Of a stretch of 23,569 bases of DNA, positions 1,819 to 23,353 are shown piece by piece. Under the pieces are notes generated by a model. It was not told where the DNA came from. It searched no databases and was given only the letters and a program-made list of their open reading frames with translations. Origin of the DNA: Borrelia coriaceae (lineage in GTDB: Bacteria > Spirochaetota > Spirochaetia > Borreliales > Borreliaceae); contig NZ_CP075087.1 of NCBI RefSeq assembly GCF_023035295.1, positions 1 to 23,569 on the forward strand. The letters run 5' to 3'. Within the stretch, counting starts at the first letter, position 1. Each line of letters begins with the position of its first letter. Both the position numbers and the translations under genes were made by a program.

Positions 1819-2913
1819 TTAATCTCTATTTAATATTCTTTCCATCAAATTTCTAATCTCGAAAGCCTCATATGAAACAGCTCTAGCCCCCTCCTTAATA
1901 CTTTTACTATTAATCAGCGCATTAAATGTATCGTAAAAAATTTCTGGAGAATGATCTTTCTTTCCAATTGCACAATCTATAACCTCATAAATCCTAACAT
2001 ACATCTTTTCTAACATATTCATATATTTCTCCACTGCATGATTAAGTACTATAAGCTCTTCTTTAGTAGCTTTAATACTAAAATTTTTATAATGCACAGG
2101 GTCGCTCATTTTAAACCATAACAAACGTAAAGTAGAAGCAGCCATCGGACCTATCATATTTAATAAACTCAAGATAACTTCTTTATATTTTCTTTGCTCA
2201 GTCTCATATTTTCTCTCAATAATTTCATTAGCAACACCTGTAATACGAGGGCGGGAAAATAACATTTTATGTATCCCAAATGCTAACGCATAGATAAAAT
2301 TGCTATCATGCCCAAAAGCAGCATAAATGGCGTCTGCACGGAAATTATAATTCAACAATTTCCTATTGTTAAATATATCATCAAAGATTAAAGATGGATA
2401 ACCCTCACCCATACTATTATAGGGTTTTGCACTCTTAAAGCTAGGCTTTAAAATATAAAATATATATCTTATTCCATCAAATTGCTTTAAAGCCTCCTCT
2501 TTTGTCTTTACATGTCTTGGTACCCCTTCTATAAAATCTAAATGTAACTTTTCCTTATGCACTGCATCAAAATTTATTGGAAGGCTAGCCTCTTTTAAAC
2601 ATGAAGAAAGTAAAGCTTCACGATTTCGTTGTTCTTCTTCAAGATTTTGTTCTTCTTCAGGAATTAGTAGCCCTTGGTCCTGTTCCTCTTTAACTTCTCT
2701 TTTTTGATCATATGGCTTTACTTCAAGGATTCCTCCAAAACTGGACAGAAGTGGAGATGGCTCACTTACACCAACTGGTTTTACTGGTTTAAATTCTGTC
2801 TTTTTTGGGATTATTTTCTTCAATTCAGTTCCTTGTGTTTCTACACGTTGATCACAACTTATTACGATCAACGCTACCAGTAATAACAAACTACTATTTA
2901 TTTCCTTAGGCAT
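1819..2913 (-). CDS. Putative surface lipoprotein, unknown family
   Basis: This 364-residue protein begins with a lipoprotein-type signal: a charged MPKEINSS start, a hydrophobic run of Leu, Val and Ile, then VISC with the lipidated Cys near residue 20. A low-complexity linker rich in Glu, Lys and Pro follows (residues ~25-100, with EEEQNLEEEQ). The mainly alpha-helical globular part (residues ~100-364) contains several aromatic-rich segments. The start is well supported by AAGGAGA 8 bases upstream of the ATG. The long charged tether after the Cys is typical of outer-surface lipoproteins in Borrelia. I cannot match the globular domain to Vlp, Vsp, Mlp, Erp, BBK32 or other families from memory, so binding partner and function are not assigned. 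It leads a two-gene unit with the 189-residue protein. Confidence 0.65.
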   Translation of the reverse strand: MPKEINSSLLLLVALIVISCDQRVETQGTELKKIIPKKTEFKPVKPVGVSEPSPLLSSFGGILEVKPYDQKREVKEEQDQGLLIPEEEQNLEEEQRNREALLSSCLKEASLPINFDAVHKEKLHLDFIEGVPRHVKTKEEALKQFDGIRYIFYILKPSFKSAKPYNSMGEGYPSLIFDDIFNNRKLLNYNFRADAIYAAFGHDSNFIYALAFGIHKMLFSRPRITGVANEIIERKYETEQRKYKEVILSLLNMIGPMAASTLRLLWFKMSDPVHYKNFSIKATKEELIVLNHAVEKYMNMLEKMYVRIYEVIDCAIGKKDHSPEIFYDTFNALINSKSIKEGARAVSYEAFEIRNLMERILNRD

Positions 2914-3038
2914 AAATATTCTCCTTCTTTTTTAAGATCAAATATTAGTTACTCCAAAACAAAAGAATACTATTATTTAGCTTAAATCATCAAATTTATT
3001 GAATAAATAATACAATATTAATAACACAATAAATCACA

Positions 3039-4286
3039 TTACAATTTTTCAATTGCAGCATCATTATTAAGTACAAGTCTTTTTTTATTCTTTATAATAA
3101 AACCTCTATCCATCAAGTCTGATAAATATTTTTTTATTTGATAAGCGGATACATTTGTCTCTTTATTAATTTTCCTTAAAGGCTTTATTGTACGCTTATC
3201 ATCTTCTAAATTAGACACAATAAATTCAAGTGACTCATCAACCCTTTTAGATGTTCTCTTTTTCCTTTCTAAACTTGAAATTTGATGATTTTTAACCTTT
3301 TCCTTTATCCCAACCCCACTTCCTGTAGATAATGTGACTAAGTGTAATAACTTTTGTTCATAAAATTTATGATACGCATTTTGTATTATGCAAAATACCA
3401 TTGCTAAAAATATATCTAGACAAACAGACAATAATAATAATGAATAAACAAAAATTATATTAAGATAATCATCTCTAGCAATAACAACAGATGTTCCATT
3501 TAAAACATTAGCTGCCTTAAACTTATTATTATTTACAGCCGACCTTTCAATTAAACTGCTAAGCTTAAACCTCAAATCCTGCAAAGACTCTAAATACTCA
3601 TTCCTTTGATTAAACAACTCCTTATTCTCCCTACTTGCATTCTCAATCTCTCTCATGTAATCTTGCTTCATGGTTCTATACGTATAATCCAAGCTTAAAT
3701 GCTTATTTTTAGCAAACTCTATGCGATCATTGTTATTCTTAATCTTAATATCAATACTAGCTATTTCACCTTCAATTATCTTCTCTTTATCAGATAGCAG
3801 CTTACGCATACCTTCCTCTTTTGCTATCTGACTCTTTTGAGTACTCAAAACAGTGTCCTTAATAGTATCTTCAAACATCAGGCTAAAGAAACTCTCAAAG
3901 CTCATCCATGAACTTACAGATTGCGTTATAAGTCCTATCACTAATAATACAAATATCGCAATTTTTTCTAAGCATGCAAATACTGAAATCCTAACACTAC
4001 CTTCAGTAACACGCTTCCTTAATAAATAAAGAAAATACAATAATATTGAAGACGGTACTACTATAACGACTATTGTAAAAGGCAATGTGAAATACAGCTT
4101 AGAACTACTACCAACAGTATAACTTGCAATCCCTCTATGTGAATGCAACACATTAAAGAAAAATAAAAACAAAGCAAATAATATTAACCAAATATTACGA
4201 ATCAAAAATTCAAAATTAAGTCTTAAAGACTCTACAATACTAAACTCAATATTATGACCTTTTGTTGGCTTACCTTTACTTATCAT
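3039..4286 (-). CDS. Membrane-anchored coiled-coil protein with C-terminal winged-helix-like domain (copy 1)
   Basis: This 415-residue protein has a clear domain order. Hydrophobic segments lie at about residues 31-48, 67-90 and 107-128. A charged coiled coil runs over about 145-247. A fourth membrane segment lies at about 274-302, followed by a basic linker and, at about 345-407, a compact segment with winged-helix spacing (KINKETNVSAYQIKKYLSDL, then a GFIIKNKKRLVL wing-like hairpin). I know no named family for it. The DNA-binding call is inferred from the tail pattern. A close paralog lies at 17829-19070; the membrane and coil parts are nearly identical, while the extreme N-terminus and the C-terminal domain differ more. 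AAGG 9 bases upstream supports the ATG. Six 19-bp repeats lie 76-190 bases upstream. Possible roles are plasmid anchoring, partition or repeat-dependent autoregulation. Confidence 0.7.
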   Translation of the reverse strand: MISKGKPTKGHNIEFSIVESLRLNFEFLIRNIWLILFALFLFFFNVLHSHRGIASYTVGSSSKLYFTLPFTIVVIVVPSSILLYFLYLLRKRVTEGSVRISVFACLEKIAIFVLLVIGLITQSVSSWMSFESFFSLMFEDTIKDTVLSTQKSQIAKEEGMRKLLSDKEKIIEGEIASIDIKIKNNNDRIEFAKNKHLSLDYTYRTMKQDYMREIENASRENKELFNQRNEYLESLQDLRFKLSSLIERSAVNNNKFKAANVLNGTSVVIARDDYLNIIFVYSLLLLSVCLDIFLAMVFCIIQNAYHKFYEQKLLHLVTLSTGSGVGIKEKVKNHQISSLERKKRTSKRVDESLEFIVSNLEDDKRTIKPLRKINKETNVSAYQIKKYLSDLMDRGFIIKNKKRLVLNNDAAIEKL

Positions 4287-4361
4287 GTATATAACCTTTT
4301 TACTTATAATACTAGTATCTATAATACTATAAAATTAACAAATCATATATATATCTTCTAT

Positions 4362-4480
4362 TCAACTTTGAGTCGATACAACTATTTTGAGTCGATACAA
4401 TTATTTTGAGTTGATACAACCATTTTGAGTCGATACAACTATTTTGAGTCGATACAACTATTTTGAGTCGATACAATTAT
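4362..4480. repeat. Six-copy 19-bp tandem repeat (iteron-like)
   Basis: Six head-to-tail copies of a 19-bp unit, consensus TTTTGAGTCGATACAACTA, have their GAG at 4370, 4389, 4408, 4427, 4446 and 4465, an exact 19-bp period. The copies differ at only a few positions. The array is upstream of the start of the membrane/winged-helix gene at 4286. Contiguous copies without spacers rule out CRISPR. Iteron or operator function is inferred. Confidence 0.9.
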
Positions 4481-4492
4481 AACATAAGAAAA

Positions 4493-4528
4493 GAATAAGG
4501 CCAGTAACAGAAGTTACTGGCCTTATTC
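4493..4528 (-). terminator. Perfect 16-bp hairpin, terminator
   Basis: Positions 4493-4508 (GAATAAGGCCAGTAAC) pair perfectly with 4513-4528 around a 4-base loop. On the minus strand the stem is followed by a T-rich tract (TTCTTTTCTT). It is the strongest hairpin in the window and marks the left edge of the antigen archive. Confidence 0.85.
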
Positions 4529-4592: not shown

Positions 4593-5480
4593 TTAAAAAA
4601 AGTCAATAGATTTCTTCAATTGTTGCCGCATTTTTGCAAACTTACCACCTTTAGCCATTGCTCTCAAGGCTATTCCTGCCGCAATAACGGCATCTTTTTT
4701 TGCTGATCCTACAGTAAGATCCTGAGCACTATCTGTTTTACCAGCAGCAATATTTGCAGCATCTTTTACTTCATTAATAGCAACGCCACCAATAGTAACA
4801 TCACCAGACATAGCAATAGCTCGCAGTATATCAGTACCACTTATAGCTCCAATTGATGCACTTGCCGCTGCTGCTTGAACCTCTGTGCCACCATTAGATT
4901 TCTTTTCACTAAATAACTTACCAATTGTTTGTTGTTGTGCATCTTTAGTCTTAGTAGCAGTTGGGTCTCCTTCACCTTGCTTTAACACTACCCCAACTAT
5001 TCCTTTAATTCCTTTAACAAGCGCAGTTACACTTGTAACGTCTGCTGCTACGGCATCCTGACCTGAAGCAGTAGCACCACTAATAGCATCACCACCAATA
5101 GCCCCTTCGGCCGCTTCTTTAGCCCCCTTTTCTATTATCCCTAATTTTTCAATAAATTTCTCAACCTCTCCTTTCACCTTTGGATAATTACCATTCTTTG
5201 CTAAAACGTCTTTTAACTTTTCTTTCGTTGTTTTCATTGTCTCTTCAATATTAGTAAAACACTTTCCTATATCTTCCTTTTTTGTATCAGCCTTAATACT
5301 CAAAGTATCAGAAACCATATTGCCAAAAGAAGTAAAAATATCTAAGAAACCTTGTCTTAAATTAGATATAGAGAGTATAAAATCCCTTTGCTTTTGAAGT
5401 TCTTCTATTACTCCATTATTACAAGAAAGGAATAGAGAGATAAATAATGTTGCACATATACTTTGTATCTTAATTTTCAT
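4593..5480 (-). CDS. vlp: Variable large protein (Vlp), C-terminus replaced, archival
   Basis: This 295-residue lipoprotein has signal peptide [20 protein letters not shown], five residues shorter than in the other cassettes. The body is Vlp: [19 protein letters not shown] near the N-terminus, a central Gly/Ala/Ser-rich variable part, and the conserved IAAGIALRAMAKGGKFA motif near residue 280. After that motif the expected C-terminal helices ([18 protein letters not shown] and following, ~50 residues) are missing; the frame ends with KMRQQLKKSIDFF. The gene therefore lost its 3' end at the edge of the archive. Intact Vlps here are 341-365 residues. The leader has GAGGCAGG rather than GGAGG. 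Vlps are outer-surface variable antigens; this copy is presumably silent and usable only as a partial donor. Confidence 0.85.
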   Translation of the reverse strand: MKIKIQSICATLFISLFLSCNNGVIEELQKQRDFILSISNLRQGFLDIFTSFGNMVSDTLSIKADTKKEDIGKCFTNIEETMKTTKEKLKDVLAKNGNYPKVKGEVEKFIEKLGIIEKGAKEAAEGAIGGDAISGATASGQDAVAADVTSVTALVKGIKGIVGVVLKQGEGDPTATKTKDAQQQTIGKLFSEKKSNGGTEVQAAAASASIGAISGTDILRAIAMSGDVTIGGVAINEVKDAANIAAGKTDSAQDLTVGSAKKDAVIAAGIALRAMAKGGKFAKMRQQLKKSIDFF

Positions 5481-5522
5481 ATATTACCTGCCTCATTCTT
5501 ATCTAAAGAGGCCAGATACAAA

Positions 5523-5561
5523 AAAGGAAAACCACTCCTATCAAAAGCAGTGTTTCCCTTT
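5523..5561 (-). terminator. Cassette-end hairpin after the vlp fragment
   Basis: AAAGGAAAAC (5523-5532) pairs with GTTTCCCTTT (5552-5561), one mismatch. It lies between the vlp fragment's stop at 5609 and the next leader, like the hairpins after other cassettes. Confidence 0.6.
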
Positions 5562-5608
5562 AATGAATTTACTATTTGGTTTACTTACTTTTTATTATTA
5601 AATTCTAA

Positions 5609-6075
5609 TTATTGGTTCTTAGCTTCAGTAGTTACAGAAATATCATTAGGATTAATGTTCATAACTTTTTTAACTTCTTTCAGTCCGGCATCAATTGTTT
5701 TTCTTATCGCTATAGTTAAAGCATTTAATGCTTTAGTTACTGCCCTTACTGCTTTACTGCTACTCCCCTTTAATTGCCTCATCAGCAGCATTAGTATTAG
5801 CAAACTTACTCTTCTTTCTTAGCCAACCGCTCTTAAGGCTATAACTCCTGAAATAACTACATCCTTAGCATTATCGGCATCACCAATACTAGCCTGACCG
5901 GCAGTATTATTAACTAATGTTATTGCTTTTCCACCCGCTTTAACCATGGCTTTTAGAATATCAGCACCAGTTACGGCTCCAACAGCTTTTGCTGCATGGA
6001 CTACTGTCTTCCTTGCATTGATAATTGCTGCCAATACCAATAATATTATCTAAACTATTAGAGCTTTTAAAACAT
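5609..6075 (-). pseudogene. 5'-truncated, frameshifted vlp fragment (group A)
   Basis: Only the 3' half of a group A vlp survives. Reading leftward, a frame with NSLDNIIGIGSN (about 6070-6035) shifts into [25 protein letters not shown]. That frame runs to a stop right after SGVIALRAVG at 5819. A shift into another frame then carries [20 protein letters not shown] and ends with [10 protein letters not shown] at 5609. There is no signal peptide or start. At least two frameshifts separate the parts. It still keeps the cassette-end hairpin. It cannot encode a lipoprotein but keeps homology that could serve in recombination. Confidence 0.85.
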
Positions 6076-6169
6076 TTTTTTAGTGTTTGCTTAAAATCAG
6101 TTTAACATTTCTTAGTTTCACTTTCTTAATGCCTACAATTTGCTTAATATTTTAACTCTATACCAACTA

Positions 6170-6607
6170 TCACCATATACAACCCATTGCTTCGCTTGTA
6201 AATTTATCTAAATCATGACTATTACCTTTAAATGAACCTTGTAAAACTACTCTAAAAGTCTTCTTTTGTTCCTCTGCACTATCTTTTCCATTACATCTTT
6301 CAAGTTGACCTTTTACATGTTCAAGTACAGATTTAATCTTAGTTGCATCATGTCCCAAAAATTTATCAAAATCATCACCCAAAGATTCTTTTAAAAAATC
6401 TAGATTTGCTTTTTCCTCTTCATTTAACTTTTCTCTTAATATTTCTTTAGGTGTTTTTTTAATTTCTCTTGTTTGCTCTTCACTTATTTCTCTTTTGCCT
6501 CTACTTTTTGATTCTTCAGTATTATTGGTAAAATCATATTTATTACAACTATTAACTAATAGTAATAAAATTAAAACAACATTAATTTTACTCATTTTTA
6601 TTTTCAT
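6170..6607 (-). CDS. mlp: Mlp family lipoprotein
   Basis: This 145-residue protein fits the multicopy lipoprotein (Mlp) family. It has a hydrophobic signal ending LLVNSC (Cys near residue 21), a charged tether with KREISEEQ, and the Mlp core: EILREKLNEEEKANLDFLKE, FDKFLGHDATKIKSVLEHVK, a CNG motif and TFRVVLQGSFKG, with a second Cys near the end. Mlps are outer-surface lipoproteins known from cp32 and other plasmids, with unclear function. The gene is intact. It sits inside the vlp archive, and its leader resembles the cassette leaders near the start codon (TAATATATGAAAATAAA) and in the TTAATTAAGGAG segment further up, suggesting it entered or evolved within the cassette framework. The final residues (AMGCIW) differ from Mlp endings I remember. 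Confidence 0.85.
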   Translation of the reverse strand: MKIKMSKINVVLILLLLVNSCNKYDFTNNTEESKSRGKREISEEQTREIKKTPKEILREKLNEEEKANLDFLKESLGDDFDKFLGHDATKIKSVLEHVKGQLERCNGKDSAEEQKKTFRVVLQGSFKGNSHDLDKFTSEAMGCIW

Positions 6608-6659
6608 ATATTATATACACCCTTTAACCTACCCCTTTAATTAAGGAGACAAAACAAAG

Positions 6660-6677
6660 GAGAAACAATCTCTCCTA
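6660..6677. other. Small hairpin upstream of mlp
   Basis: AGGAGA and TCTCCT pair around a 7-base loop between the mlp leader and the next cassette's terminator. It may be a decayed half of a second hairpin. Function is unknown. Confidence 0.35.
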
Positions 6678-6686
6678 AATCAAACA

Positions 6687-6725
6687 AAAGGGAAACTACT
6701 CTCATATATAGAAGTGTTTCCCTTT
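6687..6725 (-). terminator. Cassette-end hairpin after vlp 6743-7840
   Basis: AAAGGGAAAC (6687-6696) pairs perfectly with GTTTCCCTTT (6716-6725), just after the vlp stop on the minus strand. Confidence 0.75.
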
Positions 6726-6742
6726 AATATCTTTATTACAAC

Positions 6743-7840
6743 TTATTTAGTAGTAGATTGAACAATACCAGCTTCAATAGTTACAGGAGTATCACTAGAA
6801 TTAATTTTCATAGCGTCTTTAACAGATTTAAGTCCTGCATCAATAGTTTTCCTTATTGCAATAGTTAATGTATTTAATGCCTTAGTTACTGCACTTACTG
6901 CTGCACCTTTAATTTCAGTAGCAACATCAACTTTAATCTTAGTATCACTACTTTCATTAGTATTAGCAAATTTACCACCTTTAGTCATAGCTCTTAGTGC
7001 TATTCCAGCTGCTACTTCTGCATCTTTCTTACCCTTAGCGCCATTACCATCGGACTGACTGTATTTGGCTAAAGTAACAGCATTCCCACCATTTTTAATA
7101 GCTTGTAATATGTCGGCGCCACTTACTGACGCTACTGCTTTATAAGCATCTTTTGCTACCTTAGGAGCATCAGTCTTACTTCCAGCATTAGTATTAGCAA
7201 ATAGCATACCCGCATTAGTAGAACCAGTTCTTGAGGTAGCAGCAGAACCAGCATCTGGAACAGGAGCTTTATCATCCCCAGCAGTAGCACTTCCTTTCCC
7301 TTGAAGTACCACGTCTACAATTGATTTAATTCCACCTACTAGATTATCTACTTTTCCAACATCACCAGCATCACCTTTAGTATCACCATCACCACCAGGA
7401 GCAACATTAGCAATTGGTTCACCGGCATCACCAATAGCATCACTAGCGGTCTTTGATCCTTCTATTATTTTATCAAGTTTTGCATTTAAAGCTTTTACAG
7501 CAATCTCAGTTGCAGCAGTATTAGGATTTCCTTCTCTCTTCATTTTCTCAACAATTGCATTAAGATTATCTTTAGTTCCTTTAACAGTATCATGAACGAC
7601 CTTAAAGTAGTTCCCAACTTCAGACTTCTTAGTCTCAGAATTAAACCCTAAAACACCACCAAATGAATCCCCAAAAGAAGTAAAAATATCTAAGAAGTCA
7701 TTACCTAAATTAGCAAGTGAGGATAAGAAAGTATTTCTCTTCTCAAGTTCTTCTATCCCATTATTACAAGAAAGGAATAAAGAAAGAAATAATGTAGCAC
7801 AAATACTTTTTATATTTATATTTTTAATATTTATTTTCAT
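6743..7840 (-). CDS. vlp: Variable large protein (Vlp), group A, archival
   Basis: This is an intact 365-residue Vlp. It has the standard signal peptide and lipobox (FLSC near residue 25), then IEELEKRNTFLSSLANLGND and [19 protein letters not shown], a helical region with KKSEVGNYFKVVHDTVKGT, and a long variable central part rich in Gly, Ala, Asp and Ser. The conserved SVSGADILQAIKNGGNAVTL, AAGIALRAMTKGGKF and [18 protein letters not shown] segments follow, with a short tail. Family knowledge places mature Vlp on the outer surface as the dominant antigen during relapse. The leader has GGAGG 10 bases before the ATG. No promoter is evident, so it is taken as a silent donor. Confidence 0.93.
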   Translation of the reverse strand: MKINIKNINIKSICATLFLSLFLSCNNGIEELEKRNTFLSSLANLGNDFLDIFTSFGDSFGGVLGFNSETKKSEVGNYFKVVHDTVKGTKDNLNAIVEKMKREGNPNTAATEIAVKALNAKLDKIIEGSKTASDAIGDAGEPIANVAPGGDGDTKGDAGDVGKVDNLVGGIKSIVDVVLQGKGSATAGDDKAPVPDAGSAATSRTGSTNAGMLFANTNAGSKTDAPKVAKDAYKAVASVSGADILQAIKNGGNAVTLAKYSQSDGNGAKGKKDAEVAAGIALRAMTKGGKFANTNESSDTKIKVDVATEIKGAAVSAVTKALNTLTIAIRKTIDAGLKSVKDAMKINSSDTPVTIEAGIVQSTTK

Positions 7841-7857
7841 ATATTACGTGCCTCCTT
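7755..7857 (-). repeat. Shared 5' block of archive cassettes (upstream homology sequence), representative copy
   Basis: From about 16 bases before the ATG to about codon 27 the cassettes are almost identical. The block includes the codons for [18 protein letters not shown] and the lipobox FLSC followed by NN. Copies start with ATG at 5480, 7840, 9041, 10254, 11441, 12325, 13534, 14730, 15906 and 17283, shared by vlp and vsp alike. In B. hermsii such an upstream homology sequence directs gene conversion into the expression site. Two copies carry frameshifting deletions (14730 and 9041), one lacks five codons (5480), and one has an altered second and third codon (17283). Confidence 0.88.
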
Positions 7858-7895
7858 TTTCCTATCCCTTAACTAAAGAGGCTCAATACAAATAA

Positions 7896-7930
7896 AAGGG
7901 AAACTCTCCTATACAAGAACTGTTTCCCTT
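7896..7930 (-). terminator. Cassette-end hairpin after the vlp pseudogene
   Basis: AAGGGAAAC (7896-7904) pairs perfectly with GTTTCCCTT (7922-7930). Confidence 0.7.
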
Positions 7931-7976
7931 AAATCATTTTATTATTTAATTTCCGTATTTCTTATTAAATCTTCGA

Positions 7977-9041
7977 TTATTTACTTTTAGCTTCTGAAAC
8001 AGATACTTTTGAAACTCTTGCTTGATCTACTTCTGTCTTTACTTTATCAATAACATTCTTTACTGTCTTTTTAATTATATCTTCCACTGCTCCTAATAGT
8101 TTATTTACCGCTGTTATTCCTGCTGCTTGTACTGCTTTACCATCGTTACTACTATTTGCAGCTAATTTACCACCTTCAACCAATGAACGCAATGCTATTC
8201 CTCCTGCTACTGCTGCTGCTTTTGCATCACCTGTACCACCTGATAAATTAGATGTAATACATCCTTTTGCGAATGCAATTGCAGTTGTACTTACACTTGC
8301 TGGACCTGATACCTCTGGTTCATTGCCTTTTGATTTATTAACTATTGCATCTAACATTTCCTCTCCGCTTACTGCTGATACTATTAATGATGCTTTTTCT
8401 CCCGATGCTGCTCCTGCATTCTCATCTTTAGCTAAAACCCTAGCTCCAGCTTTTGCATCAGCTCCTATTGAGGTATCAGCTAATGATACCTCACTTTTTT
8501 GTAGTTCTTTAATCTTTTGTGTCTTAGCTATCTCCATTATTCCTTGCAGTGCCTTAAAAGCTTTTTCTAATTTTCCTGCATTTACTGTTAATCCACTTTG
8601 TGGAGAGACCACATCACCTATTACTTTGGCTACCACCACCTATATCTTTTAAATCATCCAAATATCCTTTTAAGCTCCCTAAAGCTCCCTTATCTGTATC
8701 AACAGCTACTCTAACTGCCTTATTGAATAAGCCATCTGCTGTTGCTTTTTCTGCTACTTGTTCCAATTCGGACGATACTTATCCAAGTTTAGTACCCAGT
8801 TTTTTAAAATGCTCTCCCACCTGTTCCTTAGTTGTATTTGTATCTACAGTAAAGCCCAAAGTTCCTGAAACTAACTCTATAAACTTATAAAATACTTCTT
8901 CAACACTTTTACCCATTTCCATCATTGTTTTGCCTAAATTCGCCTCTTCTACACTCTCCCCTGAATTATTACAAGAAAGGAATAAAGAAATAATGTTGCA
9001 CAAATACTTTTTATACTAATATTTTTAATATTTATTTTCAT
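7977..9041 (-). pseudogene. Frameshifted vlp pseudogene, group C
   Basis: A full-length vlp body is present but broken at three places. The start is the usual ATG at 9041, but 4 bases are missing near 8986-8990 in the signal-peptide block relative to the other cassettes, shifting the frame before the lipobox. An in-frame TAA lies at 8779-8781 (after KLG). A further shift lies near 8630-8645 (after LKDIGG). Read through these, it aligns with the intact group C gene at 16198-17283: KFIELVSGTLGFTVDTNTT, then a KAFKALQGIMEIAKT segment, VSAVSGEEMLDAIV, AVAGGIALRSLVEGGKLA and AVNKLLGAVEDIIKKTVK. The 3' two-thirds (7977-8639) is open and could still donate sequence. Confidence 0.88.
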
Positions 9042-9094
9042 ATATTACTTGCCTCCTTCCCCTATGCTTTAACTAAAGAGGATACATACAATAA

Positions 9095-9130
9095 AAGGAA
9101 AACAACTTCTATATAAGAAGTGTTTTCCTT
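9095..9130 (-). terminator. Cassette-end hairpin after vlp 9184-10254
   Basis: AAGGAAAAC (9095-9103) pairs with GTTTTCCTT (9122-9130), and ACTTCT (9105-9110) with AGAAGT (9116-9121), giving a 15-bp stem with one bulged A. Confidence 0.78.
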
Positions 9131-9183
9131 CAATGACTTTTTTATTTAGTTTACTTATTTTTTATTAAATCTTAATTAATTAT

Positions 9184-10254
9184 TTATTTAGTAGCAGTAA
9201 CAGATTCAGTAGTTACAGGAGTAGCTTCAGGATTAATGTTCATTGCTTTTTTAACAGTTTTTAGTCCTGCATCAATTGTTTCTCTTATAGCTATAGTTAA
9301 TGTATCTAATGCCTTAGTCACTGCACTTAATGCAACTCCTTTAACTGCAACTTGATAATCAGCATCATCAGCAGCAACGCCACCAGAAGCAACACCAGGG
9401 AATTTGCCGTCTTTAGTCATTGCTCTTAAGGCTATAGCTCCTGCTATAGTTGCATCTTTAGCTCTAGCTTCTGTAGCCTTAGTAGCCATTGTTTTACCAT
9501 ATGTAACAATAGCTTGTAATATGTCAGCACCAGTTACAGAACCAACAGCTTTTGCTGCATCAGCTGCCGCCTTCTTTGCATCATTAGCAGAAGAACCGAT
9601 TCCACTACTATTACCAGAATCATGAAATAACTTTCCTGCTTCACCTTGAGCACTACCACCAGTTCTGTCTTCAACATTATTACCAGCTTTTTTGCCGTCA
9701 CCAGCATTAGGATCACCCTTTTCTCCAAGTACTAATTTTACTATCTCTTTCATTCCCTCTACTAATTTATCAACATCACCAGCAGCACCACCTTTAGTCT
9801 TATCAGCAGAACCATTACCAAGTAGTTCATCACCTGTAGTACCAATAGCCCCACTAACAGTTTTTGCTCCTTCAATTATCTTATCAAGTGTATTATCAAT
9901 TAGTGTTTTTACAGCAGTCTCTACTCCAACAGCATTAGGATTGTTTGATGATTTCATGCTTTCAACAATTGTATTAAGCTTACCCTTAACTCCTTCTACA
10001 GCTTCTTTTACTTTCGTAAAGTAATTTCCAACATCAGACTTTTTAGTAGTAGTATTAAAACCCAAAACAGTACCTGTCATATCGCCAAAAGAAATGAAGA
10101 TAGATAAGAAGTCATTACCCAAATTAGCAAGTGAGGATAAGAAAGAATTTCTCTTCTCAAGTTCTTCTATTCCATTATTGCAAGAAAGGAATAAAGAGAT
10201 AAATAATGTTGCACAAATTCTTTTTACTTTAATATTTTTAATATTTATTTTCAT
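9184..10254 (-). CDS. vlp: Variable large protein (Vlp), group A, archival
   Basis: This intact 356-residue Vlp has the shared signal peptide with minor changes (KVKRICATLF) and lipobox FLSC. It continues with IEELEKRNSFLSSLANLGND, FLSIFISFGDMTGTVLGFN and KKSDVGNYFTKVKEAVEG. The central variable part contains several Gly/Asn-rich loops. SVTGADILQAIVTYGKTM, AGAIALRAMTKDGKF and LSAVTKALDTLTIAIRET follow. It is nearly identical in its N-terminal 80 residues to the cassettes at 6743 and 13661, showing recent exchange among group A members. The leader reads GATG in place of GGAGG, so even with a promoter it would be poorly translated from its own site. Confidence 0.93.
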   Translation of the reverse strand: MKINIKNIKVKRICATLFISLFLSCNNGIEELEKRNSFLSSLANLGNDFLSIFISFGDMTGTVLGFNTTTKKSDVGNYFTKVKEAVEGVKGKLNTIVESMKSSNNPNAVGVETAVKTLIDNTLDKIIEGAKTVSGAIGTTGDELLGNGSADKTKGGAAGDVDKLVEGMKEIVKLVLGEKGDPNAGDGKKAGNNVEDRTGGSAQGEAGKLFHDSGNSSGIGSSANDAKKAAADAAKAVGSVTGADILQAIVTYGKTMATKATEARAKDATIAGAIALRAMTKDGKFPGVASGGVAADDADYQVAVKGVALSAVTKALDTLTIAIRETIDAGLKTVKKAMNINPEATPVTTESVTATK

Positions 10255-10308
10255 ATATTACGTGCATCATTTTCCCTTTCATTTAACTAAAGAGGCATAT
10301 ACACAATT

Positions 10309-10346
10309 AAAGGAAAACTACTCCTATAAAAGAAGTGTTTTCCTTT
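10309..10346 (-). terminator. Cassette-end hairpin after vlp 10377-11441
   Basis: AAAGGAAAAC (10309-10318) pairs perfectly with GTTTTCCTTT (10337-10346). Confidence 0.75.
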
Positions 10347-10376
10347 AATGACTTTATTCAACTATTTATTTATTAT

Positions 10377-11441
10377 TTACTTAGTAGCAATACCAACTTC
10401 TGTAGATTCACCAATAGTCTCTGAATATTTTATTCCCTTAACTGCCTTTCCTATCTTATCTAAATGGATGTCTACTGTTTTCCTAATTATTACATTAAGT
10501 ATTCCCAGTACCTTATTTACAGCACTTACTGCTGCTCCTTTAACAACAGCACCAGCATCACTATCAGCTGGTTGAGTAAACTTACCACCTTTGGCCATAG
10601 CCTTTAATGCAACAGCTGCGGCTAAGTCTGCATTGGTAGCTGCAGTGCCGCTATTAGCAGATGAAGACCCACCAGTAGCTAATTGCCCCGCACTATTATC
10701 ACCACTAGCACTAAAGCCATCAGTTTTTGCATTCCTAATTTTATCAATCATTGCCCATGGATCTGCCTTACCAACTTCATCTGCCAACTTCTTAGCATCA
10801 CCATCAGCAGCTTGAGCATTATGAAACACTGATTTAGGACCATTTCCATTAGCTACTTGAATACCAACTTTTCCAGGATCAATCTTTACCCCAGATTTCT
10901 CTGCTGCATCAATTATATCTTTAACCCCTTCAATTACAGTCTTAACGTCACTTGCATTAACAGCATCCGATTTAGATGAAGCACTAGCACCAATTTCAGT
11001 ACTTCCATCATTAGTTATACCAGCAAGTTTAGTTAAGGAACTGATTAATTTATCAAAAACTTCAATTGTCCCTTTAATTGCAACCTTAACAGTTTCAATT
11101 GTACTTCCATCAGCATTCTTTGCTTCAGATATTTTACCTGATAAAGTGCTTAATTGATTCTTAGTATCTTCTAATCCTTTTTTTACCTTCTCAAAGTGTT
11201 TTCCTACTTCACTTTTCTTATCACCAGATTTAACAGCACTAAATCCTAATGCATCTCCCATAGCATTGCCAAAGAAACCAAAAATGTCTTGAAACCCATG
11301 ACCTATTTTGATAAGAAAATCAGAAAAAATATTTTTCTTCTGAAGATCTTCTATTACTCCATTATTACAAGAAAGGAATAAAGAGATAAATAATGTTGCA
11401 CAAATACTTTTTATATTTATATTTTTAATATTTATTTTCAT
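10377..11441 (-). CDS. vlp: Variable large protein (Vlp), group B, archival
   Basis: This intact 354-residue Vlp belongs to the second body type. After the shared signal peptide come VIEDLQKKNIFSDFLIKIGH, FQDIFGFFGNAMGDALGFSA and GKHFEKVKKGLEDTKNQL. The group hallmark KADPWAMIDKIRNA lies near residue 235, followed by AAAVALKAMAKGGKF and VSAVNKVLGILNVIIRKTVD. It is most like the cassette at 12452-13534. GGAGG is present 10 bases before the ATG. In the family the central part between the conserved helices is the exposed variable region; here it is rich in Ser, Ala, Asn and Gly. Presumed silent donor. Confidence 0.93.
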   Translation of the reverse strand: MKINIKNINIKSICATLFISLFLSCNNGVIEDLQKKNIFSDFLIKIGHGFQDIFGFFGNAMGDALGFSAVKSGDKKSEVGKHFEKVKKGLEDTKNQLSTLSGKISEAKNADGSTIETVKVAIKGTIEVFDKLISSLTKLAGITNDGSTEIGASASSKSDAVNASDVKTVIEGVKDIIDAAEKSGVKIDPGKVGIQVANGNGPKSVFHNAQAADGDAKKLADEVGKADPWAMIDKIRNAKTDGFSASGDNSAGQLATGGSSSANSGTAATNADLAAAVALKAMAKGGKFTQPADSDAGAVVKGAAVSAVNKVLGILNVIIRKTVDIHLDKIGKAVKGIKYSETIGESTEVGIATK

Positions 11442-11513
11442 ATATTACGTGCCTCCCTTTAACCCTACTCTTTAATTAAATAGGCTAAATATAAAAAAAG
11501 ATTTGAAAAAAAC

Positions 11514-11538
11514 AGGAACCTAGTTTTCTTAGGCTCCT
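11514..11538 (-). terminator. Intrinsic terminator after vsp
   Basis: AGGA-A-CCTA (11514-11522) pairs with TAGG-C-TCCT (11530-11538), with one internal A/C mismatch. On the minus strand a run of seven T follows the stem. It differs in sequence from the hairpins after the vlp cassettes, consistent with a separate vsp cassette origin. Confidence 0.75.
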
Positions 11539-11629
11539 AACTTTTTATTTATTGACTTTATTTTTATCTGTCACTTACTTATTAAGTAAAAAGTTAACCT
11601 TATAAATAAGCACTAGAATTATTGAACTA

Positions 11630-12325
11630 CTAGTTAGCTTTAATAGTAGCCTCCTTATCAGGTTCTTTAATCCCCTTTATTGTCCCGCTTAATATTTCTT
11701 TAGCAGTATTCATTAAATCAATAACAGCTATGTGTAATTCATTAAGTTCTTTTGCTCCATGTGTCCCGTCCGTACCATGAGCCTTCCTATCTATAGCCTG
11801 CTTAGCATTACTATCTTGAGTCCCACCACCAGCTCCTAAAGTGGAATACTGGGCAAGCAACTTGGTTTTAAATACTCCAGCCTTAGTTTTAACTGTCTCA
11901 ATTTTTGTTTCTAAATCTTTACCTTTCAAAGACTCTCCGACTTGCAAGCCTGTTATCTTAGTTAATATAACTGATGCGATCTCATAAACTCCTGCCATCA
12001 ATCCATTATTCTTATTATTATTACTACCGTCAGTAGTAATACCAGAAGAATTAATTTGTTTTCCAATACCTTTAGCAAGCTCATCTATAGAATTAATCAA
12101 ACTTGCTATTTCTTCAATACTCATCACAAAGGCAACAACTTCTTTTGCCTTATCACCTACTAATTTTAAATCAATCACTGTCCCATCAGCCGTAACTGCT
12201 TGCCCTGTTCTAAGCTTCTCTTTAACCTCTGCATTCTCCCCTGAATTATTACAAGAAAGGAATAAAAAGATAAATAATATTGCACAAATACTTTTTATAT
12301 TTATATTTTTAATATTTATTTTCAT
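11630..12325 (-). CDS. vsp: Variable small protein (Vsp), OspC-like, archival
   Basis: This 231-residue lipoprotein is a Vsp, the relapsing-fever relative of OspC. It uses the same signal peptide block as the vlp genes (lipobox FLSC then NNSGE). The body carries Vsp landmarks: VVAFVMSIEEIASLINSIDE followed by LAKGIGKQI near residues 60-95, LMAGVYEIASVILTKITGL, a KTKLLAQYSTLG-type segment, and a C-terminal helix with LMNTAKEILSGTIKGIKEP. Members of this family form all-helical dimers on the outer surface and act as serotype antigens; some have roles in tissue tropism or tick transmission. The leader has AAGAG instead of GGAGG. It is the only vsp in the window, lying between two group B vlp cassettes. 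Confidence 0.92.
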   Translation of the reverse strand: MKINIKNINIKSICAILFIFLFLSCNNSGENAEVKEKLRTGQAVTADGTVIDLKLVGDKAKEVVAFVMSIEEIASLINSIDELAKGIGKQINSSGITTDGSNNNKNNGLMAGVYEIASVILTKITGLQVGESLKGKDLETKIETVKTKAGVFKTKLLAQYSTLGAGGGTQDSNAKQAIDRKAHGTDGTHGAKELNELHIAVIDLMNTAKEILSGTIKGIKEPDKEATIKAN

Positions 12326-12382
12326 ATATTACGTGCACTCTTTACCCATACCTTAATAAACAAAGAGACTAGACACTAAAAA

Positions 12383-12419
12383 AAGGAAAACTACTCCCAC
12401 ACAGAGCAATGTTTCCCTT
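12383..12419 (-). terminator. Cassette-end hairpin after vlp 12452-13534
   Basis: AAGGAAAAC (12383-12391) pairs with GTTTCCCTT (12411-12419), one mismatch. Confidence 0.6.
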
Positions 12420-12451
12420 AAATGACTTTATTATTTACTTACTTTTTCTAT

Positions 12452-13534
12452 TTATTTAGCAGGATTAGCTTCCGTTGTTCCAGTTCCAGTAGTCTCAGAA
12501 TACTCTATTTTTTTAACAACCTCTCTTACTTTTTCTAGATTTTTTATTACTGTTTTAATAATTATTACATCAAGTATTCCTAATACCTTATTTACAGCAT
12601 TAGCAGCAGCCGCTTTAACTGCTCCAGCCTCTTCAGCAGAATTATTAGCAGCAAATTTACCACCTTTAGTCATGGCCTTAAGAGCAACAGCTGCTGCTAA
12701 GTCTGCATTAGTTTTTGCACCATTTTGATTAGCACCACCAGGTACTCTCGTAGCCAGCGCACCAGCTTCATTATTATTGTTTTCACTAAGAGAAGCAGTA
12801 GAAGTATTAGCATTTTGAATTTTATCTATCATTGCCCATGGATCTGCTTTTGATACTTCATCTGCTAGTAGAGGCCCAGCCTTAGCATCAGGTTTCTGAG
12901 CATTAGTATTTTTACCAACAAGTGCTGCCCCTGCTTTATCATCACCTTTTTCTACAAGATTACCAGGATTTCCTTTTTCAATATTTATACCAAACTCTTT
13001 GGCAGTTTCTATTATTTCTTTAACTTCTTTAAGAATAACATCAACACTCTCCTTGTGAGCACCAACAGCATTACCACCACCAGTCTCTATAGCCACAATC
13101 TCACCAGCTTGTTTAGTTACTTCAGCTATCTTAGCTACAGAGTCAATTAATTTTGTAAGCATTTCACTAGCAGTGCTAATAACAGCCTCAACTTCTTTAG
13201 TATCAGCATGGGAAGTAGAAACTATTTGTTTTGATAACTCTTCTAATTTAGTCTTAGTATTCTTTAATCCCTCTCCTACTTTCTCAAAGTGTTTTCCTAT
13301 TTTATCTCTAGTATCATCAGATTTAACAGCACTAAATCCTAATGCATCACCAATAGAATTACCAAAGGAACCGAACATTTCTTGAAATACATGACCTATT
13401 TTGACAAGAGAATCAAAAAAAGTATTTTTCTTCTCAAGTTCTTCTATTACTCCACTATTACAAGAAAGGAATATAGAGATAAATAATGTTACACAAATAC
13501 TTTTTATTCTAATATTTTTAATATTTATTTTCAT
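12452..13534 (-). CDS. vlp: Variable large protein (Vlp), group B, archival
   Basis: This intact 360-residue Vlp is of group B. The signal peptide has small changes (IRIKSICVTLFISIFLSC). It continues with VIEELEKKNTFFDSLVKIGH, FQEMFGSFGNSIGDALGFSA and GKHFEKVGEGLKNTKTKLEE. The KADPWAMIDKIQNA motif lies near residue 235, then AAAVALKAMTKGGKF and ANAVNKVLGILDVIIIKT. The 5' junction mixes features: the ELEKKNTF segment resembles group A, while the following part is group B, suggesting past recombination near codons 30-40. The leader has GATG rather than GGAGG and CAAGTAATAT rather than CACGTAATAT. Presumed silent. Confidence 0.93.
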   Translation of the reverse strand: MKINIKNIRIKSICVTLFISIFLSCNSGVIEELEKKNTFFDSLVKIGHVFQEMFGSFGNSIGDALGFSAVKSDDTRDKIGKHFEKVGEGLKNTKTKLEELSKQIVSTSHADTKEVEAVISTASEMLTKLIDSVAKIAEVTKQAGEIVAIETGGGNAVGAHKESVDVILKEVKEIIETAKEFGINIEKGNPGNLVEKGDDKAGAALVGKNTNAQKPDAKAGPLLADEVSKADPWAMIDKIQNANTSTASLSENNNNEAGALATRVPGGANQNGAKTNADLAAAVALKAMTKGGKFAANNSAEEAGAVKAAAANAVNKVLGILDVIIIKTVIKNLEKVREVVKKIEYSETTGTGTTEANPAK

Positions 13535-13590
13535 ATATTACTTGCATCATTTTTACCCACCCACTAACTAAAGAGGCTAAACACAAAAAA

Positions 13591-13626
13591 AAGAAAAACA
13601 ACTCCTATAATAGAAGCGTTTCCCTT
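13591..13626 (-). terminator. Degenerate cassette-end hairpin after the 13661 vlp
   Basis: The left arm AAGAAAAAC and right arm GTTTCCCTT occupy the usual place, but two mismatches weaken the stem. It is recognised mainly by position. Confidence 0.4.
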
Positions 13627-13660
13627 AAATGACTTTATTATTTAATTTACTTATCTTTTT

Positions 13661-14730
13661 TTATTTAGTAACAGTGCCAGCAGCTTCAGTAGTTACAGGA
13701 GTAGCTTCAGGGTTAATTTTCATAGCTTCTTTAACTGTTTTAAGTCCCGTATCAATCGTATTTCTTATTGCTATTGTAAGTGTATTTAATACTTTAGCAA
13801 CTGCACTAACTGCTATACCTTGAACTAAAGCAGCAATATCATTAGTTTGCCCATTAGCAAATTTACCACCGTTAGCCATAGCTCTTAACGCTATACCTCC
13901 CGCTATGGCAACATCTCTGGCATCACTATCAGCAATAGGACTAGTACCTGAAACTGTTGCATTGTTAATAGCTAACTTAGCAGCATCCCCCTTATCTTTA
14001 ACCATAGCTTGCAATATATCAGCACCGGTTACTGCTGCAACAGCTTTTGATGCATCGTTAGCAGCATCTTTTGCATTACTATCAATATTAGAAGCAGTTC
14101 CATCAAACAATTTCCTTGCATCTGTACCAGTACTCCTACTAGAGCTCTCTTGAGCTTTCTTAGTATCACCAGCCTCAGAGTTTCCTTTACCTTGAAGCAC
14201 TACATCTACAATGCCTTTAATTCCCTCTACCAGTTCACCTACTTTAGTACCAGGAACTCCACCAGCCTTGGAAGCAGCAGCCTTAGCAACATTACCAAGT
14301 AGGTCTTCACCTGTAGTACCAATAGCATCACTAACAGTCTTAGCTCCTTTAATTATTGTATCAAGTTTTTCACTAACCAATTTTTCTACTTCTTTTTTAA
14401 CAGCATCAGCATTAGGATTATTTTCTTTTTCCATATTAGCAACAATTTCCTTAAGCTTATCTTTAGTTCCTTGTACAGTGTCTTGTACTTTTTTAAAATA
14501 CTTCCCAACATCAGATTTTTTAGTATCCTTATTAAACCCTAAAACAGTACCTGTCATCTCTCCAAAAGAAGTGAAGATATTTAAGAAGTCATTACCTAAA
14601 TTAGCAAGTGAGGATAAGAAAGTATTTCTCTTTTCAAGTTCTTCTATTCCATTATTACAAGAAAGGAATAGAGAAATAAATAATGTTGCACAAATACTTT
14701 TTATTCTAATATTTTAATATTTATTTTCAT
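13661..14730 (-). pseudogene. vlp: vlp, group A, with a 1-base frameshift in the signal-peptide block
   Basis: The ATG at 14730 lies in the usual leader with GGAGG, but a T run at 14712-14715 has 4 T where the other cassettes have 5. The frame therefore reads MKINIKILE and stops. Downstream the vlp frame is fully open from just after the deletion to the stop at 13661: lipobox [92 protein letters not shown] and VSAVAKVLNTLTIAIRNT. An ORF search would call only 13661-14557 from an internal ATG. Because the lesion lies inside the shared block, conversion starting after it would yield a functional antigen. Confidence 0.88.
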
Positions 14731-14789
14731 ATATTACGTGCCTCCCTCCTTATTTCCCTCACCTTAACCAAAGAGGCTAGATATAAAAA

Positions 14790-14833
14790 AAGAGAAACAA
14801 TATCCTCTAAATAAAAGGCAACTTGTTCCTCTT
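14790..14833 (-). terminator. Cassette-end hairpin after vlp 14881-15906
   Basis: AAGAGAAACAA (14790-14800) pairs with TTGTTCCTCTT (14823-14833), one mismatch; the sequence differs from the other cassette hairpins but position and T-rich flank match. Confidence 0.6.
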
Positions 14834-14880
14834 AAATGACTCTATTATTTAATTATTTATAGCGTATTAATTCTGCTTGT

Positions 14881-15906
14881 TTACTTTTTAGTTTCAGAAA
14901 TATTATTATCAGAAATTACAGGAGTATCATCAGGATTAATCTTCATTGCTTTTTTAACTTCCTTAAGTCCTTCATCAATTGTCTTTCTTATTGCAATAGT
15001 CAATGTACTTAATGCTTTAGTAACTGCACTTATTGCTGCGCCTTTAATCGCATCAGCAGCCTCATCAGTCTTGGAATTAGGACCAGCAAATTTGCCATCT
15101 TTTGCCATTGCTCTTAATGTTATAGTACCTGCAATAATTCCATCTTTTTTATTATCTCCACTGGATTTAATCATAGCTTTCAAGATGTCAGCACCAGTTA
15201 CTGCTCCCACAGCTTTAACCGCATCAGCTGCCGCTTTTTTTGAATTAGCAGCATCTCCAGCATGAGTACTATTATCAAACAACTTTCCCGCTTCACCAGC
15301 AGTAGTACCACCGGTTCTTTTAGTAAGGTTTTCAGCCTTTTTATCATCCCCAGCTTCAGCATTACCCTCATTTTTAAGAACTACATCTACTATATCTTTA
15401 ATTCCTTTTATTAAGCTCTCAATTTTACCCTCAACACCTGCAGGAGAACTAGCATCAGCAACATTACCAATTGGGTCACTAGCATCAGCAATAGCATCAC
15501 TAACAGCCTTAGCTCCTTTAATTATATTATCTAATTTGTCATTTAAAGTTATTACAGCAGCCTTTGTTCCAGAAGCGTTACGATTGTTTTCTTTTTCCAT
15601 ATTAGCAACAATTTCATCAAGCGTTGTCCTAGTTATTGTTAAGCTCTTTTCTATATTCTTAAAGTAATCTTTAACATCAGACTTTTTAGTTTCAGTATTA
15701 AACCCTAAAACACTATTAGACATCTCACCAAAAGAAGTAAAAATATCTAAGAAGTCATTACCTAACTTAGCAATTGAAGAGTAGAACTGCTTATCCTTCT
15801 GAAGTTTTTCTAATTCCTCCCCTGAATTATTACAAGAAAGGAATAAAGAGATAAATAATGTTGCACAAATACTTTTTATATTTATATTTTTAATATTTAT
15901 TTTCAT
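14881..15906 (-). CDS. vlp: Variable large protein (Vlp), group A, archival
   Basis: This intact 341-residue Vlp is the shortest intact one here. After the shared signal peptide it reads [20 protein letters not shown], then [20 protein letters not shown] and [20 protein letters not shown]. The NNSGE after the lipobox is the form found in the vsp and group C genes, while the body is group A, so the 5' end looks like a hybrid. The central part has a [20 protein letters not shown] segment shared with other group A genes. [30 protein letters not shown] and [18 protein letters not shown] follow. The leader has a GGAGG-like sequence. Presumed silent donor. Confidence 0.93.
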
Positions 15907-15958
15907 ATATTACTTGCCTCCATTATCACTATCTCTTAACTAAAAAGGTTATACACAA

Positions 15959-15998
15959 AAAAGGACAACAACTCTTACAAAGAGAAGTGTTTTTCTTT
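15959..15998 (-). terminator. Hairpin next to the vlp 3' remnant
   Basis: AAAGGACAAC and AACTCTT on the left can pair imperfectly with AGAGAAGT and GTTTTTCTTT on the right. Position and layout match the cassette-end hairpins, here following the 16050-16108 remnant. Confidence 0.5.
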
Positions 15999-16049
15999 AA
16001 CGACTTTATTATTTAGTTTACTTATCTTTTATTAAATCTAAATTCTAAA

Positions 16050-16108
16050 TTACTGATTATTAGCTTCAGTAGTTAAAGGAATAGTTTTAGGATTAATTTT
16101 TATAACTT
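16050..16108 (-). pseudogene. 3' tail remnant of a group A vlp
   Basis: On the minus strand this short stretch reads VIKINPKTIPLTTEANNQ and a stop, matching the last residues of group A Vlps (compare AMKINPEATPVTTEA in the 13661 cassette). Nothing else of that gene remains upstream; instead the terminator of the 16198 gene follows. It is a scar of a deletion or cassette insertion. Confidence 0.8.
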
Positions 16109-16124
16109 ACTTTAAATTAAAAAA

Positions 16125-16163
16125 TAGAAGGCAACTTAGAATTACCTCTAAACTTACCTTCTA
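16125..16163 (-). terminator. Hairpin after vlp 16198-17283
   Basis: TAGAAGG (16125-16131) pairs with CCTTCTA (16157-16163), with further imperfect pairing inside. It is a different sequence from the hairpins after group A and B genes. Confidence 0.6.
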
Positions 16164-16197
16164 CTCCTACTTGTAAATAATCAACTTAATTCGTATT

Positions 16198-19070: not shown

Positions 19071-19133
19071 TAAAATACCTCTATCTTAAATCATAGTACC
19101 ATACAACTAACAAACTTTTACATACCCTTAAAT

Positions 19134-19190
19134 ACTTGTGATGAAATTATCAATTTGTGATAAACACCCCCACTTGTGATGAAATTAATT
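19134..19190. repeat. Three-copy 19-bp repeat upstream of copy 2
   Basis: Three adjacent 19-base units at 19134-19152, 19153-19171 and 19172-19190 share TTGTGAT followed by an A-rich part (TTGTGA at 19136, 19155 and 19174). Copies 1 and 3 share their first 16 bases; the middle one differs more. The unit length equals that of the array at 4362-4480, but the sequence is unrelated. Confidence 0.8.
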
Positions 19191-22043: not shown

Positions 22044-22069
22044 AATAAGCAAATTTGCACTTGCTTATT
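22044..22069. terminator. Bidirectional hairpin between convergent genes
   Basis: AATAAGCAA (22044-22052) pairs perfectly with TTGCTTATT (22061-22069) around an 8-base loop. It lies between the plus-strand gene ending at 22017 and the minus-strand bdr, whose stop codon (22065-22067) is inside the right arm. Confidence 0.65.
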
Positions 22070-22969: not shown

Positions 22970-23353
22970 TACTAATATATACTAATGGGTGTTATTCTGA
23001 GGGGGTTTTCAAATTATAAGAATAGTAGCGTTTAGTATAGAGGTGTTTAGTACAGTGGAGAGGTAAGGAAAATATTTTTTTGCAGCGATTTTTATATCTT
23101 TTAAAGAGTAGTAAATATTTTATTTAATTTAAATTTAATCTATGTTAGAATAATTTTCTAAATCAATTAGTGAATATTATGAAAGTTTCAAATTATATTT
23201 GATTTGTCTATAGCTTATTATAAAGAGTGTTATCTATTGTAAAGTTAGAGTTAGTAAAATTTTTGTTATTGAGTTTTGTACTGTTTGATGTGAAGAAGTA
23301 ATTTTGTTAGGCTTTATTGTGAATTAGTCCGTAGTGTATTTGCATATAGAAAA
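22970..23353. repeat. Right subtelomeric inverted repeat, inner part; no gene
   Basis: About 22970-23130 is a well-conserved inverted copy of 395-550; the rest is a diverged counterpart of 216-395. A telomere-like motif is at 23031-23050 (TTTAGTATAGAGGTGTTTAG), facing opposite to the terminal one. No coding sequence is recognisable. Confidence 0.75.

Follow-up and report, generated by a model that had tools for sequence, protein, structure and literature searches.

How is a small linear plasmid inherited when it carries no ParA motor? Relapsing-fever bacteria hold many small linear plasmids, and the question is raised by a stretch of 23,569 nucleotides from Borrelia coriaceae (assembly GCF_023035295.1, contig NZ_CP075087.1, positions 1 to 23,569), which we call the window and which belongs to contig C12 of the host genome. 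On its minus strand, at 3039-4286, lies a gene for a 415-residue protein (copy a, or C12a) that combines four membrane segments with two predicted elements, a coiled-coil hairpin and a C-terminal winged helix, and just upstream, at 4366-4480, stand six copies of a 19-bp repeat. We suggest that genes of this kind form a plasmid-borne tether or partition module consisting of a single protein, free of any NTPase, with a centromere-like array; we put the chance that this whole chain is right at about even. Three findings carry the suggestion: the best-matching non-coding arrays in the host plasmid DNA scanned all lie upstream of genes of this family, genes that share an array also share their DNA-binding head, and the genes are found mostly on plasmids without ParA.

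A membrane protein with a predicted winged helix and a private array

The gene was characterized by its open reading frame, paralog and homolog searches, hydropathy and AlphaFold2 modelling. An earlier note on this DNA had credited the product with four membrane segments, a long coiled coil and a C-terminal winged-helix-like domain, the last with a structure prediction set as its test beforehand, and all three are borne out. Hydropathy gives membrane segments at residues 23-50 (4137-4220), 63-91 (4014-4100), 96-130 (3897-4001) and 272-306 (3369-3473), all, like the features below, on the minus strand. AlphaFold2 predicts a coiled-coil helical hairpin at residues 139-256 (3519-3872), whose arms (139-198 and 204-256) have a predicted local distance difference test score (pLDDT) of about 90; the loop charges, read by the positive-inside rule, would place this hairpin in the periplasm. 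The model of the whole protein reached a pLDDT of 69.3 and a predicted template-modelling score (pTM) of 0.41, so the relative placement of its parts is unreliable.

Modelled alone, residues 320-415 form a canonical winged helix with its elements in the order helix-helix-helix-strand-strand and a core pLDDT above 90. The domain itself, hereafter the head, spans residues 346-410 (3057-3251), and its predicted recognition helix (helix 62-74 of the C-terminal model) corresponds to residues 381-393 (3108-3146). The structural search that had been proposed for this domain yielded winged helices: the model aligns with those of the MntR, IclR, MarR and ArsR types, and Pfam adds weak winged-helix matches. 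We claim the head at the level of fold class only, because Foldseek gave no match for it at 1e-3 and several of the top VIA rows for its fold were methyltransferases. A fold search with the full-length protein returned long-helix matches, none at 1e-3, and a profile search of the Protein Data Bank with the head returned nothing significant, AspA of a Sulfolobus partition system appearing at the noise level (E 0.62-0.77).

Tandem Repeats Finder (TRF) describes the window's array, with the coding-strand unit TTGTATCGACTCAAAATAG, as 6.0 copies of period 19 at 92% match. With up to three mismatches allowed, the unit matches six times against 0.01 expected, and none of 100 shuffles reaches six. The array had been called an exact six-copy repeat; its copy number stands and its exactness does not, as on the coding strand three copies are identical and the other three differ from these at one or two positions. 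The 79 bp between array and start codon (4287-4365, minus strand) hold a promoter-like leader, TTGTTA...TATAGTATTATAG, which was recognized by eye, is similar among paralogs and fits the sigma-70 consensus poorly. On the side away from the gene, the array is bounded by the strong intrinsic terminator of the upstream vlp gene (4493-4528, minus strand; 16-pair stem, fold z-score -10.9). Single-strand structure of the array was considered and rejected (z -1.86, with 8 of 200 shuffles equally or more stable), and the stable hairpin next to it is that terminator.

The host genome contains seven full-length copies of the gene, two of them in the window. The second (copy b, C12b), which the earlier note overlooked, encodes 413 residues at 17829-19070 on the minus strand, was recognized by open reading frame, paralog search and hydropathy, and is 86% identical to copy a with different upstream repeats of its own. 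Five of the seven lie beneath tandem arrays: 19 bp x 6 (C12a), 19 bp x 10 (C13, with a unit nearly the same as that of C12a), 38 bp x 5.8 (C23), 95 bp x 4.9 (C15) and 16 bp x 3.9 (C18). Upstream of the remaining two, C12b and the copy on plasmid contig C9, upstream sequence and motif search reveal three imperfect copies of a common motif 18-20 bp apart; in the window these are TTTCATCACAAGT twice and TTTATCACAAATT, at 19133-19184 on the minus strand.

These arrays are private to the family in the plasmid DNA examined. TRF was run on 690,019 bases of host plasmid DNA, which leave aside the chromosome, most of C8, 8 kb of C6 and 500 bases of C18, and it returned 16 non-coding rows with a period of at least 15 and at least 3 copies. 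The five rows at 89-98% match, a line drawn after the row list had been seen, all lie directly upstream of family genes; the other 11 comprise seven subtelomeric rows (67-76% match, 3.2-3.8 copies) and four AT-rich ones (61-78%). Within the same bases, the array core motifs, at up to one mismatch, occur only upstream of family genes. The 8 kb of C6, scanned later, contain no array motif, and across the whole host genome the 14-base core of the window's unit, matched exactly, occurs only upstream of family genes.

In relatives, arrays of other units stand in this position, some of them much longer. Arrays of 19 bp reach 65.7 copies in G004:C10 and 60.5 in G007:C11 (genome:contig), at 95-98% match, followed by 32.6 copies in G017:C7, 12.2 on B. 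turicatae lp24, 8.9 and 4.9 in G009, and 6.9 on B. venezuelensis lp17-1. Other periods are seen in G002:C11 (24.8 x 22 bp), on B. miyamotoi lp20-2 (7.2 x 17 bp) and upstream of the gene in G005:C30 (six to eight 22-bp copies), and G005:C41 has irregular repeats there.

Heads and arrays also vary together. We aligned 24 genes, of which 16 had a definable unit, picked by eye, and 14 entered a Mantel comparison after two near-duplicates ('ven' and 'C9') were dropped; lp29, lp24, lp13, lp31, Izh14, ZSt, G008 and G005:C41 gave no unit, and reptile-type homologs lay outside the set. Among these 14 genes, array similarity correlates with winged-helix identity (r 0.52, P 0.0006), and does so with the membrane part removed (r 0.58, P 0.0002), against r 0.18 (P 0.06) for the membrane part itself. 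The 20-residue block that best tracks array similarity is 369-388, at the helix-turn-helix (r 0.62). The array-sharing pairs C12a/C13 and C9/C12b have the highest winged-helix identities of the 21 pairs in the host genome (1.00 and 0.91), whereas C12a and C23, with membrane parts 96% identical, have heads 83% identical and different arrays. The median synonymous divergence (dS) among the host's paralogs is 0.13 in the membrane and coil part and 0.32 in the head; between species it is 0.52 and 0.47, respectively. The bodies thus appear to be homogenized within the genome and the heads less so, as would be expected if gene conversion spares the head. Both parts are under constraint, since the median nonsynonymous divergence (dN) is below dS in both sets. 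The idea that the gene is paired with repeats of its own is therefore supported by array scans, motif search and head/array comparison, and extends from one locus to a family.

Carriage on plasmids without ParA

The family is found in Borrelia: among the best 8000 word-sharing candidates there were 33 homologs, 23 with a named source, all Borrelia, and 10 without a source name. Matches occur in 14 of the 18 Borrelia genomes, in G003 as no more than a fragment; of the four genomes that lack one, G006, G011 and G012 are single-contig assemblies. Genomes G004, G007 and G017 each show a single intact copy. The other genus of the Borreliaceae yielded no more than short interrupted fragments, in 2 of its 18 genomes searched. 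Split or partial copies occur on G004:C5, which has ParA, and also on the chromosome-sized contig C1 of G009, close to either end, as though the gene were moving with subtelomeric exchange.

ParA was sought with PF13614 in the host genome and by tblastn with the 12 host ParAs in relatives. The window's contig has no PF13614 match and the window no tblastn match at 1e-5, so partition of the ParABS/PF32 type was set aside as an assignment for this gene; tandem repeats directly upstream of the gene, a trait of single-protein partition with cis-acting repeats, are present. Across the 23 host plasmid contigs, five have the gene without ParA (C9, C12, C13, C15 and C18), one has both (C23), one has neither and 16 have ParA without the gene (Fisher P 0.001). 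Counting all 19 contigs with an intact gene, each scanned for ParA over its full length, ParA is absent from 16: the five just named together with G004:C10, G007:C11, G009:C15 and C16, G017:C7, G016:C3, G013:C2, C4 and C5, G014:C7 and G010:C4. The three with both are C23 of the host (39 kb), G002:C11 (66 kb) and G015:C2 (78 kb). The count covers neither drafts G005 and G008, nor the 8.8-kb contig G010:C13 (no ParA), nor split or partial copies. In 14 named plasmid stretches, five of them incomplete, there was no ParA match (best E 0.48).

The window carries a long-form PF57/62 plasmid maintenance protein, 531 residues at 19957-21552 on the plus strand (PF02414, E 7.2e-31), from which copy b is divergently oriented. 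We took as long-form those PF57 contigs with an open frame of at least 500 residues in six relapsing-fever genomes (G000, G002, G004, G007, G009 and G017). Among the matches listed, all 10 such contigs that lack ParA have the family gene, against 2 of the 8 that possess ParA (P 0.0015); plasmids that gain a ParA cassette therefore seem to lose the family gene. In B. miyamotoi, the gene is likewise divergent from PF57/62, with 0.85-1.35 kb between them. Plasmids lp29, lp27, lp24, lp18-2 and lp13 of strain Izh-4 are described as having PF57/62 only (PMC6945570), and we found the gene on Izh-4 lp29, lp24 and lp18-2 (truncated) and on Izh-5 lp13. As far as the available text of the genome papers goes (PMC9158201, PMC6945570), the partitioning of such PF32-less relapsing-fever plasmids is unaccounted for. 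A family gene with its array on several of them is a concrete candidate, and several plasmids carrying the gene hold antigen-variation cassettes, so that their upkeep is biologically important.

A proposed tether and its rivals

The topology, DNA binding, autoregulation and segregation function that we infer for the family protein would fit together as follows. Four helices would hold the protein in the inner membrane, with the coiled-coil hairpin, some 60 residues per arm, extending into the periplasm and the winged helix in the cytoplasm, where its targets would be the tandem repeats lying just ahead of the promoter of its own gene. A row of many bound proteins could fasten the linear plasmid to the envelope, keeping plasmid copies separate and allowing their inheritance with no ParA motor, and occupancy of the array beside the promoter would also set the expression of the gene itself. 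Among the roles offered in the earlier note, anchoring and partition are favored by the association with ParA-less plasmids, and an envelope-sensing regulator is disfavored because array motifs lie only upstream of family genes in the DNA examined.

Several observations weigh against this reading. The correlation with ParA is confounded by common descent: 13 linear plasmids with PF57/62 only fall in one PF57/62 clade and have been suggested to be prophages or their remnants (PMC9158201). One host contig, C2, has neither ParA nor a family gene. Among ParA-less plasmids of B. miyamotoi, the gene on lp20 is split over several frames in two strains, and on lp18-2 a truncation falls within the winged helix; lp20 may persist because paralogs with similar motifs, carried by other plasmids, assist it in trans, or because the gene is dispensable. 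Arrays are also uneven, since the copies on B. miyamotoi lp29, lp24, lp13 and lp31 have only a few degenerate repeats, each of the two G008 copies looked at has a single one, and the reptile-type Borrelia stretches scanned have no non-coding array of period at least 15. When one gene is kept per array family (nine), the correlation of head and array disappears (r -0.02; partial 0.32, P 0.04), and the signal therefore consists mainly in same-array genes having the same head. The linker at residues 316-345 is about neutral among the host's paralogs (median dN 0.28, dS 0.25). Finally, C12 has array motifs in common with C13 and also with C9, all three in the host genome, which is awkward for a strict incompatibility determinant.

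The strongest rival, which we consider unlikely, is a membrane-bound transcription factor that senses the envelope through the periplasmic hairpin and controls its own gene only. The position of the array just upstream of a promoter-like leader that is similar among paralogs fits this, as does the last repeat, which by eye abuts a -10-like stretch in G009, B. venezuelensis, G002 and G005, and the combination of membrane body and periplasmic hairpin would allow sensing. However, arrays of 25-66 copies exceed the size expected of an operator, and the link with ParA-less plasmids is left unexplained. Target sites at the promoters of other genes, a trait of ToxR/CadC-type regulators, were absent from the 690 kb of plasmid DNA, the chromosome having been searched for the window's unit only, and thus no regulon is visible in that plasmid DNA. 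A global regulator of vlp genes was rejected, the array motif being nowhere else in the plasmid DNA examined.

Somewhat less probable still is a replication or copy-number factor, in which the array would be a set of iterons bound by a RepL-like winged helix and replication would take place at the membrane. Homologs in reptile Borrelia and B. hispanica are annotated as RepL, 10 of 38 family members match RepL (PF05732) at E up to 1 (best 2.4e-5), nine of 38 have weak PHROG replication-initiation matches (best 3.1e-4), and the B. miyamotoi arrangement beside PF57/62 would suit such a role. The window protein itself, however, scores 19.8 bits, short of the 20.3 bits of the Pfam gathering cut-off for RepL, and aligns over no more than profile positions 62-119 (58 of 164), so that membership of RepL was rejected. 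A PF57/62-type 'plasmid maintenance protein' is already present on all 14 named plasmid stretches, and in subtelomeric copies the array lies about 11-21 kb from PF57/62. The arrays were also considered as PF57/62 iterons, and they adjoin the family gene instead.

We think it improbable that this is a prophage gene (for immunity, superinfection exclusion or similar) with an operator array on plasmid-prophages. The proposal that PF57/62-only plasmids are prophages or remnants speaks for it, as do a tape-measure gene on B. turicatae lp24 and a DUF935 gene on RT5S lp27-B; the window and most B. miyamotoi plasmids examined, however, are vlp/vsp archives, phage structural genes are unannotated on those B. 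miyamotoi plasmids, and PHROG and PADLOC matches are weak. A search for anti-phage defense gave only PsyrA, at E 0.1. We regard as very improbable an array that has nothing to do with the protein, whether as part of PF57/62 or as neutral satellite DNA: slippage can produce homogeneous arrays, and a further non-coding 16-bp array lies downstream of the gene in G009:C15 (53 copies, 2788-3641 of that stretch) and C16 (8 copies), but arrays adjoin the family gene wherever it is located, not PF57/62, and genes that share an array also share a head.

Returning to the single-protein tether, a bolder form of it is doubtful, if less so than any of these rivals. The protein and its array would be a transmembrane plasmid kinetochore: an integral membrane protein would hold the satellite-like array and, by its periplasmic stalk, grip peptidoglycan or the periplasmic flagella, with envelope growth driving segregation in place of a motor, and array and DNA-binding head would turn over together like centromere DNA and its proteins. 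This would be the literal form of the replicon model that Jacob, Brenner and Cuzin are said to have put forward. Were the tether confirmed, it would add an integral-membrane, motor-free mode of DNA segregation, and one genome would offer several natural head/array pairs for the study of how specificity diverges.

Elsewhere in the window, a vlp cassette archive, with some cassettes truncated or broken, fills 4593-17283 and includes an Mlp lipoprotein gene at 6170-6607; 1244-1813 is a remnant of the C-terminus of a Type ISP restriction enzyme (PF18135, E 2.9e-25). Bdr-type repeat proteins are encoded near both ends, at 553-1161 (NCBIfam Bdr match) and 22065-22904 (by sequence resemblance). The termini are inverted repeats (1-219 and 23350-23568, 93% complementary) with degenerate 21-22-bp subtelomeric repeats resembling GGCAACTATGTAT, and several other contigs of the host genome have similar ones close to their ends.

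Comparison with known systems

Literature searches on the window protein, including by locus tags, found no paper, in agreement with the earlier view that no named Borrelia system is like it; its analogues (RocS, pSK1 Par and TubY) lie outside Borrelia. Within Borrelia, chromosome segregation in B. burgdorferi involves ParA with ParZ (PMC9712426). The PF32/49/50/57-62 set is similarly plasmid-borne and concerned with maintenance, and PF57/62 occurs on the same plasmids (PMC9158201, PMC6945570), but the window protein matches none of these families and is usually present where PF32 is absent.

One of the closest likenesses is to RocS of Streptococcus pneumoniae, which is also membrane-bound, has a winged helix and a coiled coil, and drives DNA segregation without ParA, for which its authors propose tethering of DNA to the membrane (PMC11500499). 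RocS differs in having an N-terminal winged helix of the MerR type, DUF536 and a C-terminal amphipathic helix (PMC11500499), whereas the window protein has four transmembrane segments ahead of its C-terminal winged helix, a hairpin that is probably periplasmic, and a private array. The staphylococcal pSK1 Par, as described in PMC11500499, is a single-protein plasmid partition system with a coiled coil, is possibly membrane-binding and is proposed to bind plasmid repeats; it differs in its MerR-type N-terminal head, DUF536, solubility and predicted amphipathic tail. The N-terminal winged helix of RocS and pSK1 Par is not what we see, the window's head being at residues 346-410, and DUF536 was absent from the five Pfam families of the window protein and from the best 25 of 43 for the 38 members. 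How one membrane-tethered protein segregates DNA is a question open for both RocS and pSK1 Par, and the Borrelia family, if our reading holds, bears on it.

Two further systems share the use of repeats. For segregation of plasmid R388, the DNA-binding protein StbA is required, together with direct repeats that flank the promoter of StbA itself, and the ATPase is not; these repeats, however, are of 9 bp in two sets of five, their motif is also found in other R388 promoters, and the available part of PMC3098194 does not describe StbA as a membrane protein. In the type III (TubY/TubR) system, a repeat-type centromere lies upstream of the tub genes, and TubY is a coiled-coil helix-turn-helix protein that binds both DNA and membrane, though it works with the TubZ GTPase and through an amphipathic tail rather than transmembrane segments (PMC7762940). 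None of the families tested fits, and by analogy we suggest that the Borrelia proteins would resemble single-protein, membrane-tethered segregation systems in how they work while differing from them in how they are built.
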